45,571 bases of DNA from Candidatus Brocadia sp. (GTDB taxonomy: Bacteria > Planctomycetota > Brocadiia > Brocadiales > Brocadiaceae). A program made the translations under genes and the position numbers. Location: positions 1 to 45,571 of the forward strand of contig SOEU01000024.1 in assembly GCA_021646415.1 (NCBI GenBank), in the 5' to 3' direction. Position 1 is the stretch's first letter. Each line of letters starts with the position of its first letter. This document shows positions 723 to 5,955 of this stretch, one piece after another. The notes beneath the pieces are model-generated. The model saw only the letters and a list, made by a program, of their open reading frames with translations, ran no database searches and had not been told where the DNA came from.

Positions 723-2174
723 CTACCGCTGGATAGGAGTTGTGGTCAGAGGCCGAACGCTGTCATTCCCCACCAGTTTCTGAAAATAATCGGGATATCG
801 GCTGCGCAACGTATCATACAACCAGGCCCCCTGCTCGTACCATCTCAATAGTTCCTCACACCACCAGTCAAGGGGTGGTTGAAATGTGCCATCCTGATTT
901 GATACATGCCAGGGACAATATCCGCCACAGATGTTGATTGCCCAACAACTCTCGCACTTTCTCTTTGTCTCAAAATAGGCGTGCAGATAGTCGGCAAACT
1001 TTTTACTATCAATCCCAGTCGAGACATCGCCCAGGACATAGTTTTCCATACCTACGTAACGATGACATGGGTAAAGTCTTCCGTCAATTCCCACGGCTGT
1101 ACAACCACGTCCCACGCCGCATCGAATCCGTCGTTTTTGCTTATTGTGGATGTCCTGTACCACCTTGGCCCAGGGATTGAATCGAATTCGCTCTCCCCGA
1201 TCCAATTGCTTGAGCAGACGGTCCAGTAAATAATCTTCCTGGTCTTTAAGTATAGTATTTTCCTCGATACCAATGTCATACGGTCCCTGGCAGTATGACT
1301 TGCCGGTGCAATAACTCAATGCCACTCTGGTAAAACCGAAATCCTCCAAAAATTGGACGATCCCGATCTGATCTAGACATTGTTTGCTAATAGTGCACCG
1401 AACCGTTACCGAGCGGCGATGCTGCATCAACCGTTTGATATTGCGAGATGCCATTTCGAACGATCCTTGCCCGTTTTTGAATGGTCGTATTTGATCATGT
1501 ATCTCTTTGGAACCGTCCAAACTAACCATCAAGCCGAAGTTATACCTCTTGATGTAGCCTATGATCTCATCGTCCAGTAGCGTGGCGTTGGTCGTCATCG
1601 AGTAACGAACCTCTTTGCCCTGTTCATGGGCTAGCTGCTGGCTATAACGGATTACGCTGCGCATCACCGGCTTGTTAAGCAGCGGCTCGCCACCAAAAAA
1701 AGTGATATTGATTTGTCGAACTTTGTCTGCCCTTTGAAATACAAGATTTACAGCCTCTTTCGCAATTCCCAGAGACATAAGGCCATTGTTGAGCGCATTA
1801 TTCTCGCCGACATAACAGTAATGGCAACGTAGGTTACAGGCCTCAGCCAGACAAAGCTCAATACTATTAGCGGACATCCGCGTGAGTTGTCGGATGTAGG
1901 CTCCGTTTTCCTGGTGGTCGTAAACAGAACCCTGAAAGAACCCTTTTCGTTCTAACCAGTTCAACTCGCTCAGGACGGTCTGGGAAGTCTCCACACCATA
2001 TTTTTTAGACAGGTGACCAGAAATAGCGTCAAGAGAAGTCTCTGTCAGACGCAACGACAGCGCGTCGTAAGCGGGGTCGTCAATCCGTGCGACAGCACTC
2101 GACTCGATATCAAAAACATATTTATTGCCTCTAAACTGGAAAAGGTGATAGGATATCGTAGCCGTTTTTTTCAT
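723..2174 (-). CDS. Radical SAM/SPASM peptide maturase (SCIFF/QhpD-like)
   Basis: This 483-residue protein has three parts. Residues 8-82 form a small PqqD-like/RRE-type N-terminal domain with the pattern FRGNKYVFDIESSAVARIDD, much like the N-terminus of SCIFF maturases. The radical SAM core carries the cluster motif C113-x3-C117-x2-C120 and GGEP at 161-164. A C-terminal SPASM domain has Cys 352, 358, 370, 407, 410, 416, 420 and 439, enough for two auxiliary [4Fe-4S] clusters. Relatives cut SAM and join Cys sulfur to carbons of other residues (thioether cross-links) in peptides or small subunits. The start ATG has a GGAGTG site 8 nt upstream. The likely substrate is the Cys/Asp-rich repeat protein encoded downstream, which is an inference from position and composition. 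The family call is firm; the exact reaction is not. Confidence 0.88.
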   Translation of the reverse strand: MKKTATISYHLFQFRGNKYVFDIESSAVARIDDPAYDALSLRLTETSLDAISGHLSKKYGVETSQTVLSELNWLERKGFFQGSVYDHQENGAYIRQLTRMSANSIELCLAEACNLRCHYCYVGENNALNNGLMSLGIAKEAVNLVFQRADKVRQINITFFGGEPLLNKPVMRSVIRYSQQLAHEQGKEVRYSMTTNATLLDDEIIGYIKRYNFGLMVSLDGSKEIHDQIRPFKNGQGSFEMASRNIKRLMQHRRSVTVRCTISKQCLDQIGIVQFLEDFGFTRVALSYCTGKSYCQGPYDIGIEENTILKDQEDYLLDRLLKQLDRGERIRFNPWAKVVQDIHNKQKRRIRCGVGRGCTAVGIDGRLYPCHRYVGMENYVLGDVSTGIDSKKFADYLHAYFETKRKCESCWAINICGGYCPWHVSNQDGTFQPPLDWWCEELLRWYEQGAWLYDTLRSRYPDYFQKLVGNDSVRPLTTTPIQR

Positions 2175-2634: not shown

Positions 2635-3666
2635 CTACCTTGACCTTCGTGATGCATTATTCCCAGACCTCACCCTCACCTTTTCTGGACCATGCATGGT
2701 GCTCAGGCCGTTATAGTCCACATCCTCCAGCTTATAATAGTATGTGCCTTTGGCCGGTGGTGTGTCTACATAGCTGTAACTGGCTCCGGATACTGTATTG
2801 CCTTGGGCAGGGATGAGTGTGTCGTTAATCTTTTTGTAAGTACCATCCTTGAGCCTTGCGCGGTAGAGGTTGAAGCCGGCGTTGTCCACCTCCGTGGCCG
2901 TTTCCCAAGTCAGGATCACACTACCATCATCATTTGCTTTTGCGGCGAAGGATGTGAGTTCTACAGCATTGCCTTTTTCAGTCCATTTCTTTGTTAGTTT
3001 GTTTTTTGACTCAATAATTGCATCGGTGACCAGATCATAAGAAAATGCAGAAATAGTATCGGAACCTGGTTTACCCTCATTATCGTGATATGTAAACGTT
3101 GCTACGCCTTTATCGTTTGTATCACTTTCCACACGTAGATTGTTACTTCCATCGACAAGAAAAATTACAGTGACTTGCTTGGCCGGATTACCAGCGATAT
3201 CCACAACCTCTGCTTCAACAGTATGGTTAGTGTTTACGGTATTCTCATCCTTATCTTGAGATAAAGTAATGCCGGCATTTACCCACCTCTTTTCAACAAC
3301 ATTTGATTTTTCACCACTTATTAGTATTTTTGCCACTATACTATCTGTAGCCGCTATTTTTTTATTATCGTGGTAAGTAAAAGTTGCTTTTCCATCCTTA
3401 TCTATTCTGGCAAAGCCTGTTTGAACGTTATTTCCACTGACATCAAAACCCACACTGATTCCCTCCGAGGGCGGCTTACCACTGTCATCTGTCACTGTAG
3501 CAGTAACGGTATGATCAGTGTCTATAGTATTCGTGGCTGTTAAGGGTTCTAACTCAATACCTCCCCATGCCACGGGTGCAGGCAAATTGGCTAGGAAGAT
3601 TAAAAATCCGGTCATTAGCAACAACAGCCCTGTCTTTTTCATTGCTCTCCATTCAGTTTTTTTCAT
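2635..3666 (-). CDS. Secreted protein with two Ig-like repeats and a FnIII-like C-terminus
   Basis: This 343-residue protein starts with a Sec signal peptide (the hydrophobic core follows MKKTGLLLL). Two Ig-like (Big_1-type) modules follow, at about residues 36-125 and 130-225; both end in a conserved phrase like ATFTYHDN. The C-terminal 100 residues (ILTWETATEVDNAGFNLYRA onward) look like a fibronectin-III-type domain of the kind found at the ends of planctomycete surface proteins. No enzyme motif is visible. A role in the cell surface or extracellular matrix is inferred. GAGGGA lies 7 nt before the ATG at 3666; a second in-frame ATG at 3642 has its own GGAGAG and could be the true start. 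A GEMM-type riboswitch and terminator lie about 370 nt upstream on the same strand, which would fit control of a surface component by a cyclic dinucleotide. Confidence 0.8.
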   Translation of the reverse strand: MKKTEWRAMKKTGLLLLMTGFLIFLANLPAPVAWGGIELEPLTATNTIDTDHTVTATVTDDSGKPPSEGISVGFDVSGNNVQTGFARIDKDGKATFTYHDNKKIAATDSIVAKILISGEKSNVVEKRWVNAGITLSQDKDENTVNTNHTVEAEVVDIAGNPAKQVTVIFLVDGSNNLRVESDTNDKGVATFTYHDNEGKPGSDTISAFSYDLVTDAIIESKNKLTKKWTEKGNAVELTSFAAKANDDGSVILTWETATEVDNAGFNLYRARLKDGTYKKINDTLIPAQGNTVSGASYSYVDTPPAKGTYYYKLEDVDYNGLSTMHGPEKVRVRSGNNASRRSR

Positions 3667-3982: not shown

Positions 3983-4008
3983 AGGGCACGTGGCAACGTG
4001 CCCCTACA
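3983..4008. repeat. Palindromic dispersed repeat (GGGCACGT/ACGTGCCC)
   Basis: GGGCACGT at 3984-3991 pairs with ACGTGCCC at 3996-4003 and is followed by CTAC. A clear relative with the same layout (AGGGACACGGTG palindrome, then AC) sits inside mtaB at 36074-36097. Confidence 0.7.
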
Positions 4009-4030: not shown

Positions 4031-4083
4031 TAAAAAAAGCCTTACCGCAAAGATTTTTCCTCAATATCTTCGGCAGCAAGGCT
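4031..4083 (-). terminator. Riboswitch-linked intrinsic terminator, copy 1
   Basis: AGCCTTGCTGC (minus strand, 4083-4073) pairs over 11 bp, with three G-U pairs, with GCGGTAAGGCT (4048-4038), followed by a U-tract. The 5' arm is shared with the aptamer 3' end. Confidence 0.85.
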
Positions 4084-4176
4084 GTCTTTATATTTTCCTG
4101 CCTTTGCAGGAAAATATTCTAAAGACCCTTTGCTTTGCGCCCCCTGATCGCTCAGGGTTTGCCTTTATCGGAATGG
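4070..4176 (-). promoter_or_regulatory. GEMM-I-like cyclic-dinucleotide riboswitch, copy 1
   Basis: Read on the minus strand, the order is CCGATAAAGGCAAACC, a short hairpin (CCCTGA...TCAGGG), GCGCAAAGC, GGGTCTTT, a variable hairpin (TTTTCCTGC...GCAGGAAAA) and AGACAGCCTTGCTGCCGA. This matches the conserved blocks of the GEMM-I (c-di-GMP-I) aptamer. The 3' block also forms one arm of the following terminator, so ligand binding should favour read-through, an ON switch (inference). It begins just after the stop codon of the PqqD-like gene. I cannot decide between c-di-GMP and cGAMP. Confidence 0.8.
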
Positions 4177-4198: not shown

Positions 4199-4477
4199 TT
4201 ACAAATCTTTTTCCTCCACGATCCCTTTCGTTACAAAAACCTCCAACGTATGCAGGATATCTCCGGCAACATCATGGTTATCAGGGATAGAAAACCTTGT
4301 CCTGATCACCTGTTCCATCTCTTCTCGGGTATGCCCACCATCGCACAGTTCCCAGATGAGTTTCGCTGTGGGATTAAGGACATGTATTGCCTTTCCCTCG
4401 GTGCTATAAAGTAATGTCTCACGTCCCATATCCTGCACCAGAATGCCTTGTTTGCGGATCGGTTTTGTTGTATTCAC
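4199..4477 (-). CDS. PqqD-family peptide-recognition (RRE) protein
   Basis: This 92-residue protein starts with GTG at 4477 (AGGGG about 8 nt upstream). The body has the PqqD pattern: a beta-rich start (LVQDMGRETLLY), then the hallmark HVLNPTAKLIWELCDG, then two helices with HTREEMEQVIRTRF. PqqD proteins bind the leader of a ribosomal peptide and hand it to a radical SAM enzyme. No pqqA, pqqC or pqqE is seen nearby. The closest radical SAM/SPASM enzyme is 2 kb downstream on the same strand, and it seems to have its own N-terminal RRE-like domain. A second GEMM-like riboswitch lies about 850 nt upstream. The family is clear; partnership with the maturase is inferred. Confidence 0.85.
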   Translation of the reverse strand: MNTTKPIRKQGILVQDMGRETLLYSTEGKAIHVLNPTAKLIWELCDGGHTREEMEQVIRTRFSIPDNHDVAGDILHTLEVFVTKGIVEEKDL

Positions 4478-4555
4478 AGTCTATTACCCCTTGCGTTTTT
4501 TTGGAGACAACAGTCAAATCTTTATCAACGGTATTAAACAAACACAGTTTAAGAC

Positions 4556-4650
4556 CTCCCCTTAGCCCCCTCCTTCGCAAGGAGAAACAGGGAAGATTAT
4601 TTTTATTACCTCCCCCTAGCCCCCTCCTTCGTAAGGAGGGGAAGCGGGGT
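4556..4650. repeat. C-rich hairpin repeats (CCCCCTCCTTCG...AAGGAGGGG)
   Basis: Two adjacent copies carry AGCCCCCTCCTTCG followed by AAGGAG, at about 4566-4585 and 4618-4640. Related hairpins with CCCCTTTGATAAGGGGG or TTTGATAGAGGGG occur at 4720-4745, 4840-4855, 4890-4910 and 5250-5275, and a copy lies inside mtaB near 36046-36070. Confidence 0.7.
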
Positions 4651-4660
4651 TATAAGTTTG

Positions 4661-4716
4661 GTAGGTTGGGTGAAGCCTGTCCCGAGTTTGCCGAGGGGCG
4701 GAGCGCACCCAACAAC
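4661..4716. repeat. GTAGGTTGGGTG-type REP-like element, copy 2
   Basis: GTAGGTTGGGTGAAGC is followed by an extra G/C-rich segment and then GCGCACCCAACAA. Its normal trailing flank (TTTACTTCGTTTAACCC, about 4760) is split from it by a CCCCCTTTGATAAGGGGG hairpin, so one repeat appears inserted into another. Confidence 0.75.
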
Positions 4717-4969
4717 CCCCTGTATCCCCCTTTGATAAGGGGGACTTTAAAGATGACGGGTTTACTTCGTTTAACCCTATCCTTACTTTACTTTGTAAAC
4801 ACATTCAACAAAAGTGACAGACTACCTTATTTCCCCTTTAGAAAGAGGGGATTAAGGGGTGTGTATTCCCTGTTCTTGACACCCCCCCAACCCCTTTTGA
4901 TAGAGGGGAGAATTATCATCACTACTTTTGGAGAAACAGTTTAGTTTTTTGAAAGATGAGTTGTGCTTT

Positions 4970-5175
4970 TTAAGTCCCTATAGGGACGTGAGGCAATAGG
5001 CAGGCAATTTATTGCCTGTATTTTTATCAAAGAGAAATACAGTCCCGTAGGGACGATTGAGACGATTTTGTATCCATAATCTTCATTCGCCCCTACAGGG
5101 CTTATTTTTATCTTTCTCTTAACACAGGCAATAAATTGCCTGCCTATGAGCAATTTGCCCCTCCGGGGCGAAATC
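4970..5175. repeat. MITE-like inverted-repeat element
   Basis: GGCAGGCAATTTATTGCCTG (about 4996-5019 with flanks) is matched inverted at about 5124-5147 over some 24 bp. The interior and ends carry small palindromes such as GTCCCGTAGGGAC and CCCCTCCGGGG. It has no ORF and looks like a non-autonomous or REP-cluster element sitting between a riboswitch and its likely target gene. Confidence 0.6.
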
Positions 5176-5202
5176 AGCACAAGGCTTTGCCTTGATAGTT
5201 TG

Positions 5203-5234
5203 GTAGGTTGGGTGAAGCGGAGCGCACCCAACAA
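5203..5234. repeat. GTAGGTTGGGTG-type REP-like element, copy 3
   Basis: This is the shortest and cleanest copy: GTAGGTTGGGTGAAGCGG then AGCGCACCCAACAA, a near-perfect palindrome. Confidence 0.8.
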
Positions 5235-5322
5235 ACAACTCTACTTAACCCCCCCCAACCCCTCTTGATAGAGAGGAGAATTACCATCACTACTTTTTGG
5301 ACAGTCCCGTCCGCTTAGAAAC

Positions 5323-5375
5323 AAAAAAGCCTTACTGCAAAAATGTCCTTGTAAAACATCTTCGGCAGTAAGGCT
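5323..5375 (-). terminator. Riboswitch-linked intrinsic terminator, copy 2
   Basis: AGCCTTACTGC (minus strand, 5375... arm 5365-5375) pairs perfectly over 11 bp with GCAGTAAGGCT (arm 5328-5338), with an inner GATGT/ACATT extension and a run of T after it. Base changes relative to copy 1 keep the pairing. Confidence 0.88.
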
Positions 5376-5476
5376 GTCTTATTTTTAGCCGCTTAAACGG
5401 TTCAAACAGTTTAAACCGTTTATAAAGACCCTTTACTTTGCGCCCCCCGATCACTCAGGGTTTGCCTTTATCGGAA
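5363..5476 (-). promoter_or_regulatory. GEMM-I-like cyclic-dinucleotide riboswitch, copy 2
   Basis: The minus strand reads CCGATAAAGGCAAACC, hairpin CCCTGAGTGATCGGGGG, GCGCAAAG, GGGTCTTT, a variable hairpin (AAACGGTT...AACCGTTT) and AGACAGCCTTACTGCCGA. The core blocks match copy 1 while the variable hairpin is unrelated in sequence but keeps a stem, as expected for a functional RNA. The next minus-strand gene is the PqqD-like gene, with repeats between. The 3' block is shared with the terminator. Confidence 0.8.
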
Positions 5477-5596: not shown

Positions 5597-5955
5597 AGCA
5601 GTCTAACATAAAATTATAAGATGTCAAGAATAAAATAATTATTTTATAGCTTCTGATACCCCGCCTTTATCGTTTCTCTACAAACAAATTCAAAACTGTT
5701 GTATTTTCTTTGAGTTCGTCGCCTTATTTTTTCCCCTTGTGTTGCGAATTGATATACTTTATAAAGATAACTGATATGAATCTGCTATGCTGCAACAGTC
5801 AAGCAGATAGGGCCGCAAGGTAAAAGAAAGAAGGGTCGCGAAAGAGGAAAGGTGAGGGGAGAAACAAAGATGATACAGTTTTTCAGTGAAGAGATAACTC
5901 ACGGGATATTCCGGGTGCGATTTGTGTATAATAAATAACAGTTCCAGTTTACGAA

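Follow-up and report, generated by a model that had tools for sequence, protein, structure and literature searches.

Among the described systems closest to the locus studied here, the Vc2 riboswitch has been described as an OFF switch that acts on translation (PMC9262584), and the pilM riboswitch of Geobacter has been shown experimentally to be an ON switch in which a terminator sequesters the ligand-pairing C (PMC9262584). In this same Geobacter riboswitch (Gmet_0970), the A20G substitution makes the switch selective for c-di-GMP instead of cGAMP (PMC6456294), and 17 GEMM-I riboswitches are reported from G. sulfurreducens (PMC6456294). Class-I c-di-GMP riboswitches also occur in tandem, with 347 doublets known (PMC9481103). 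For anammox riboswitches we found no description in the open-access literature, to which the search was confined.

We analysed a window of 45,571 nt, the whole stretch of Candidatus Brocadia DNA under study. An aptamer on its minus strand, here called RS2, is most probably (roughly 0.87) a class-I c-di-GMP transcriptional ON switch that is gated by a terminator and is one of a regulon of about 44 members. The features of the locus, in minus-strand order, are these:

5600-5627, minus strand: sigma-70-like promoter match upstream of RS1, weak (10/12, with TG before the second hexamer)
5360-5475, minus strand: second c-di-GMP-I aptamer, RS1 (RF03167 65.2 bits, E 2.6e-13; RF01051 62.3 bits)
5323-5375, minus strand: RS1 terminator, of the same overlapping design as that of RS2 (59-nt fold -27.1 kcal/mol, z -7.4)
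4199-4477, minus strand: PqqD-family peptide-chaperone gene between RS1 and RS2, GTG start (PF05402, 40.5 bits)
4068-4172, minus strand: c-di-GMP-I aptamer RS2, with P1, P1b, P2 with a GCGA (GNRA) loop, and P3 with a long hairpin insert
4032-4083, minus strand: RS2 intrinsic terminator, a 17-bp stem with a single bulge, followed by U7
3983-4004, minus strand: hairpin between RS2 and the gene, 9 bp, weak U tract
2635-3666, minus strand: predicted secreted protein with a signal-peptide-like N-terminus, a Big_1 domain and a C-terminal FnIII-like domain with a basic tail
723-2174, minus strand: PapB/QhpD-like radical SAM/SPASM peptide maturase, the gene that follows the Ig/FnIII gene

By motif and by fold, RS2 is confirmed as a class-I c-di-GMP (GEMM-I) aptamer. 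Searching the whole window with cmscan against Rfam 15 gave two matches, RS2 and RS1, both to RF03167, both on the minus strand, and both full length and untruncated; RS2 scored 69.2 bits (E 2e-14; gathering score 59), and neither RF03167 nor RF01051 matched in any of 14 control genomes. The earlier note, whose interval of 4031-4176 spans RS2 together with its terminator, had read the core blocks of the c-di-GMP-I aptamer on the minus strand, a reading borne out by full-length matches to both models, and the RF01051 search that it had named as its refuting test gave a significant 67.0 bits, above the gathering score of 35; RS1, a second full copy on the same platform, was overlooked there. Taken alone, the RS2 sequence folds at -42.4 kcal/mol (z -5.6; 0/200 shuffles equal). 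In an alignment of 93 sequences, 97.1% of the cells of the aptamer structure are paired and double changes occur at 10 of its 20 pairs (shuffle mean 4.6; 0/500), and slid controls pair at only 26-50%, compared with 97.1% for the aptamer and 95.9% for the terminator. The pocket, read from the model alignment in Vc2 numbering, which we take from general knowledge, consists of G20 (4163), A47 (4136) and C92 (4073). G20/A47 is found in 97 of the 101 copies checked in this and related genomes, the other four being two with A20 (C9:74490 in this genome, and L094), one with G47 (C28:16539 in this genome) and one that the pattern did not read. The P3 loops of many copies, such as the one at 5360-5475 (minus strand), carry palindromic inserts, for example GTTTAAACnGTTTAAAC and ATTTTCCTGC-GCAGGAAAAT; three of the four genome sites of the GTTTAAACnGTTTAAAC pattern lie inside riboswitches.

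The terminator that the earlier note had described as 11 bp long, with one arm supplied by the 3' block of the aptamer, is real, but its length is greater: AGCCUUGCUGC forms 11 bp, a single bulged C interrupts the stem, and 6 more pairs bring the total to 17, followed by UUUUUUU (4032-4083, minus strand). The shared arm is as the note had it, with the 5' arm at 4066-4083 including the 3' strand of P3 and P1 as well as C92. This terminator alone reaches -22.9 kcal/mol (z -4.6), with 0/200 shuffles as good, and across the 93 sequences double changes appear in 14 of its cells (shuffle mean 3.9; 0/500). Counting terminator pairs that carry double changes gives no excess over shuffles (193/500), which is expected given that the aptamer constrains one of the arms. 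Since the aptamer 3' strand (P3, C92, P1) is also the terminator 5' arm, the two folds cannot coexist, and from their mutual exclusion a transcriptional ON switch is predicted. That c-di-GMP would act in the ON direction is argued by analogy, the architecture being that of the Geobacter pilM riboswitch.

Without ligand, the minimum free energy (MFE) structure is the terminator state in 91 of the 93 sequences, RS2 included; the forced aptamer state averages 20.8 kcal/mol worse than the MFE over the 93 sequences, and the predicted advantage of the terminator state over the aptamer state is about 15 kcal/mol. With the terminator this far ahead in energy, the switch must act kinetically, during transcription; the ligand-driven gain in read-through could be small. 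At low c-di-GMP, the nascent RNA would fold into the 17-bp terminator, capturing the 3' strand of P3/P1 and the ligand-pairing C, and transcription would halt upstream of the secreted Ig/FnIII gene. At high c-di-GMP, the bound ligand would lock P1/P3 and keep the terminator 5' arm within the aptamer, and the polymerase would continue past the terminator position.

The minus-strand order of RS1, pqqD, RS2, secreted Ig/FnIII gene (2635-3666) and radical SAM/SPASM maturase gene (723-2174) is not confined to the window as far as its first four elements are concerned: RS-pqqD-RS-Ig/FnIII also occurs in three other Ca. Brocadia genomes (L122 in G008, L123 in G001 and L124 in G005), and partial versions occur elsewhere (pqqD-RS-FnIII at L125, RS-pqqD at L127). 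Over 400 nt covering pqqD and the first part of RS2, the window and L122 are 83.5% identical; between RS1 and pqqD lie 882 repeat-rich nt (4478-5359) in the window and about 0.1 kb in L122. In both, RS2 starts about 24 nt past the pqqD stop codon, which leaves little room for a private promoter, so that RS1 and RS2 probably gate one operon in series. RS1 would gate pqqD, RS2 would gate the secreted protein again, and the stretch from RS1 through pqqD and RS2 to Ig/FnIII would presumably be co-transcribed; the repeat-filled 882 nt between RS1 and pqqD in the window are a point against the proposed arrangement.

Peptide genes were also observed near this locus and its counterparts. At 1-436 of the window (minus strand), directly downstream of the PapB/QhpD-like radical SAM maturase, a Tat-signal protein (RRDFLRKLG) runs into Cys/Asp-rich repeats (DICDPGTNNPDVCDPPNSEDKCLTSVGDTDECKGGS) and is cut by the contig end; it resembles a RiPP precursor. 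At L122, L123, L124, L125, L101 and L110, the Ig/FnIII genes have next to them a gene for a ~40-aa peptide, MEDxKLPxYEAPEVITYTDEEIFEKLGPAHTG..., with PqqD, an HprK-related kinase, an S24/S26-like peptidase and an NTP_transf_5 nucleotidyltransferase as neighbours, a set that is a candidate PqqD/HprK RiPP-like system under c-di-GMP riboswitches. In the window, this PqqD-associated peptide (MEDxKLPxYEAPEVITYTDEEI...) was sought and not found.

The description of the downstream gene as encoding a secreted Ig/FnIII-like protein, made in the earlier note, agrees with our domain analysis. Besides the signal-peptide-like start, the Big_1 domain scores 37.8 bits (cut-off 34.9), and the C-terminal part is a beta sandwich in an AlphaFold2 model (pLDDT 83.9) that among PDB structures matches FnIII domains best (TM 0.61-0.67); a phmmer search of the protein against PDB sequences found nothing. 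Many secreted Brocadia proteins end in a version of its C-terminal ~110 aa, with up to 11 matches per genome.

This ORF starts 401 nt from the RS2 aptamer, and the gap contains the hairpin at 3983-4004, possibly a second terminator or a dispersed repeat, which leaves some doubt as to how far the Ig/FnIII gene depends on RS2. It could be that RS2 binds c-di-GMP and only ends read-through from pqqD, with the Ig/FnIII gene transcribed from its own promoter in the gap. The length of the gap, the further hairpin and the lack of sequence conservation across the gap in G008 speak for such an arrangement, which we nevertheless judge unlikely, given that 25 of 40 copies in this genome lie within 150 nt of their gene, that relatives retain the order RS2-Ig/FnIII, the gap being shorter in G001, and that sigma-70-like matches are no more frequent than chance (5 found, 5.8 expected).

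Other alternatives concern the ligand. c-di-GMP is expected for RS2, and cGAMP is unlikely, because of the G20/A47/C92 pocket, the effect of A20G in Gmet_0970 and the Asp kept in GGDEF domains. The architecture of RS2 does match that of the cGAMP-sensing pilM switch (PMC9262584), and A20 is present in one copy of this genome (C9:74490) and in one relative (L094), as would suit a cGAMP-sensing GEMM-Ib riboswitch on the same ON platform; however, where GEMM-Ib has A at position 20, RS2 has G20, and A20G is the change that turns Gmet_0970 from cGAMP to c-di-GMP selectivity (PMC6456294). Above cut-off, 12 GGDEF and 4 EAL matches were counted in this genome, and the Asp of the GGDEF selectivity site is kept in 10/10 clear GGDEF domains, two further ones being degenerate. 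Hypr cGAMP synthases have Ser at this site, and this Hypr signature (D to S) is absent from the 10 clear domains. Sensing of cGAMP by RS2 was thus rejected on pocket residues, with the Hypr serine also unseen, and we regard it as very improbable. Least credible of all is that RS2 belongs to the A47G sub-class that Rfam names "GGC", with an altered ligand preference. RF03167 (c-di-GMP-I-GGC) is indeed the top-scoring model, but it beats RF01051 by only about 2 bits on RS2, and the base right after P1b is G in its consensus (ACGCGAAgC) and A in RS2 (GCGCAAAGC), with A at position 47 in all but one of the 45 copies of this genome. We infer that "GGC" stands for positions 20/47/92; since the consensus has G47 and RS2 has A47, the sub-label fits the RS2 backbone and not the base taken as defining the sub-class, and the sub-class was rejected for RS2 on this pocket residue.

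Read as a c-di-GMP-sensing ON switch, RS2 marks one of about 44 loci of a putative c-di-GMP-ON regulon that would extend across the genome of this Ca. Brocadia anammox bacterium. Its own assembly (3.81 Mb, 99.96% complete) gave 44 matches to RF03167 and 45 to RF01051, a few of them degenerate, and the overlapping terminator is common to nearly all of these copies. Each of ten other genomes of the genus carries 20-56 copies; the numbers are 1-24 in other genera of the family, 0-10 in other families of the order, and 0-5 in the sampled planctomycetes outside the order, where at most 10 candidates per genome were scored and no count could exceed 10. The 17 GEMM-I riboswitches of G. sulfurreducens (PMC6456294) serve as a comparison. 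Some copies are clustered or in tandem, for example C7:153553/153771 (118 nt apart) and those of C28 (481 nt apart). The downstream genes, classed by Pfam/NCBIfam, are of surface, matrix, peptidase, cytochrome, radical-SAM/RiPP-like and regulator types: CHRD, cytochrome c', P460-like cytochrome, UDPGP and a DMSO-reductase-II alpha subunit; sigma-54 regulators, a STAS-PilZ protein, Polysacc_synt_2, M4/M48/S8/C14 peptidases and transglutaminase; and beta-propeller and Kelch proteins, DUF11, Big_5 and radical-SAM genes.

Several individual copies deserve mention. The copy at C18:4772-4881 (plus strand; L012) lies 58 nt ahead of the gene for the DMSO-reductase type II alpha subunit; among solved structures, this NarG/NxrA-like gene is closest to 5e7o (DMSO-reductase type II) and far from Kuenenia NxrA, which gives no support for tying it directly to the core nitrite oxidoreductase. 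The cGAMP-type base A20 is seen in C9:74490-74599 (minus strand; L040) and in L094, though no Hypr GGDEF was recognised. At C1:386000-386089 (plus strand; L042), this genome has a weak degenerate aptamer that scores 31.4 bits and carries U in place of C92. About 96 nt downstream of it comes an ORF that shares its frame with a GGDEF-EAL pair (RR-PAS-GGDEF-EAL, 1731 aa), and the aptamer may be a feedback switch, now decayed, for an enzyme of c-di-GMP turnover.

Anammox bacteria are without a pure-culture isolate, and the genetics of granulation, on which wastewater treatment relies, is poorly understood. Interest attaches to the size and uniformity of the regulon and to the conserved two-switch locus around pqqD. 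The about 44 uniform switches provide a testable list of genes predicted to be induced together by c-di-GMP, including putative granule matrix proteins, and, because aptamer and terminator are both nearly constant, they form a natural series on how small sequence changes tune a riboswitch. We propose a role in the surface-attached or granular state, and on balance lean towards a wider view in which the about 20-56 near-identical ON switches per Ca. Brocadia genome, nearly all with the same overlapping terminator, would make up one of the largest known c-di-GMP riboswitch regulons and let c-di-GMP directly induce a co-ordinated set of surface and matrix proteins, RiPP-like maturation, cytochromes and a DMSO-reductase-type enzyme, with RNA switches, not protein effectors, as the main route to the granular, attached state.

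Both the riboswitch class and the type of mechanism are already known, and RS2 is a further member. Like RF01051/Vc2, it has the full consensus, P1/P2/P3, the GNRA loop and the G20/A47/C92 pocket; unlike Vc2, a translational OFF switch (PMC9262584), it has an overlapping terminator, a predicted ON direction and long hairpin inserts in P3. With RF03167 (c-di-GMP-I-GGC), its best-scoring Rfam model, it shares the short P1 and the AAAGGC block, and it departs from the model consensus at position 47, with A for G. The GEMM-Ib riboswitch of Geobacter metallireducens pilM (Gmet_0970) likewise has mutually exclusive aptamer and terminator folds and a sequestered C, the ON direction being shown for pilM and predicted for RS2, but pilM senses cGAMP and has A20, whereas RS2 has G20. 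As in the tandem c-di-GMP-I doublets (PMC9481103), RS1 and RS2 are two complete switches in series; unlike those doublets, they flank a gene, pqqD, in an order that is conserved across species.
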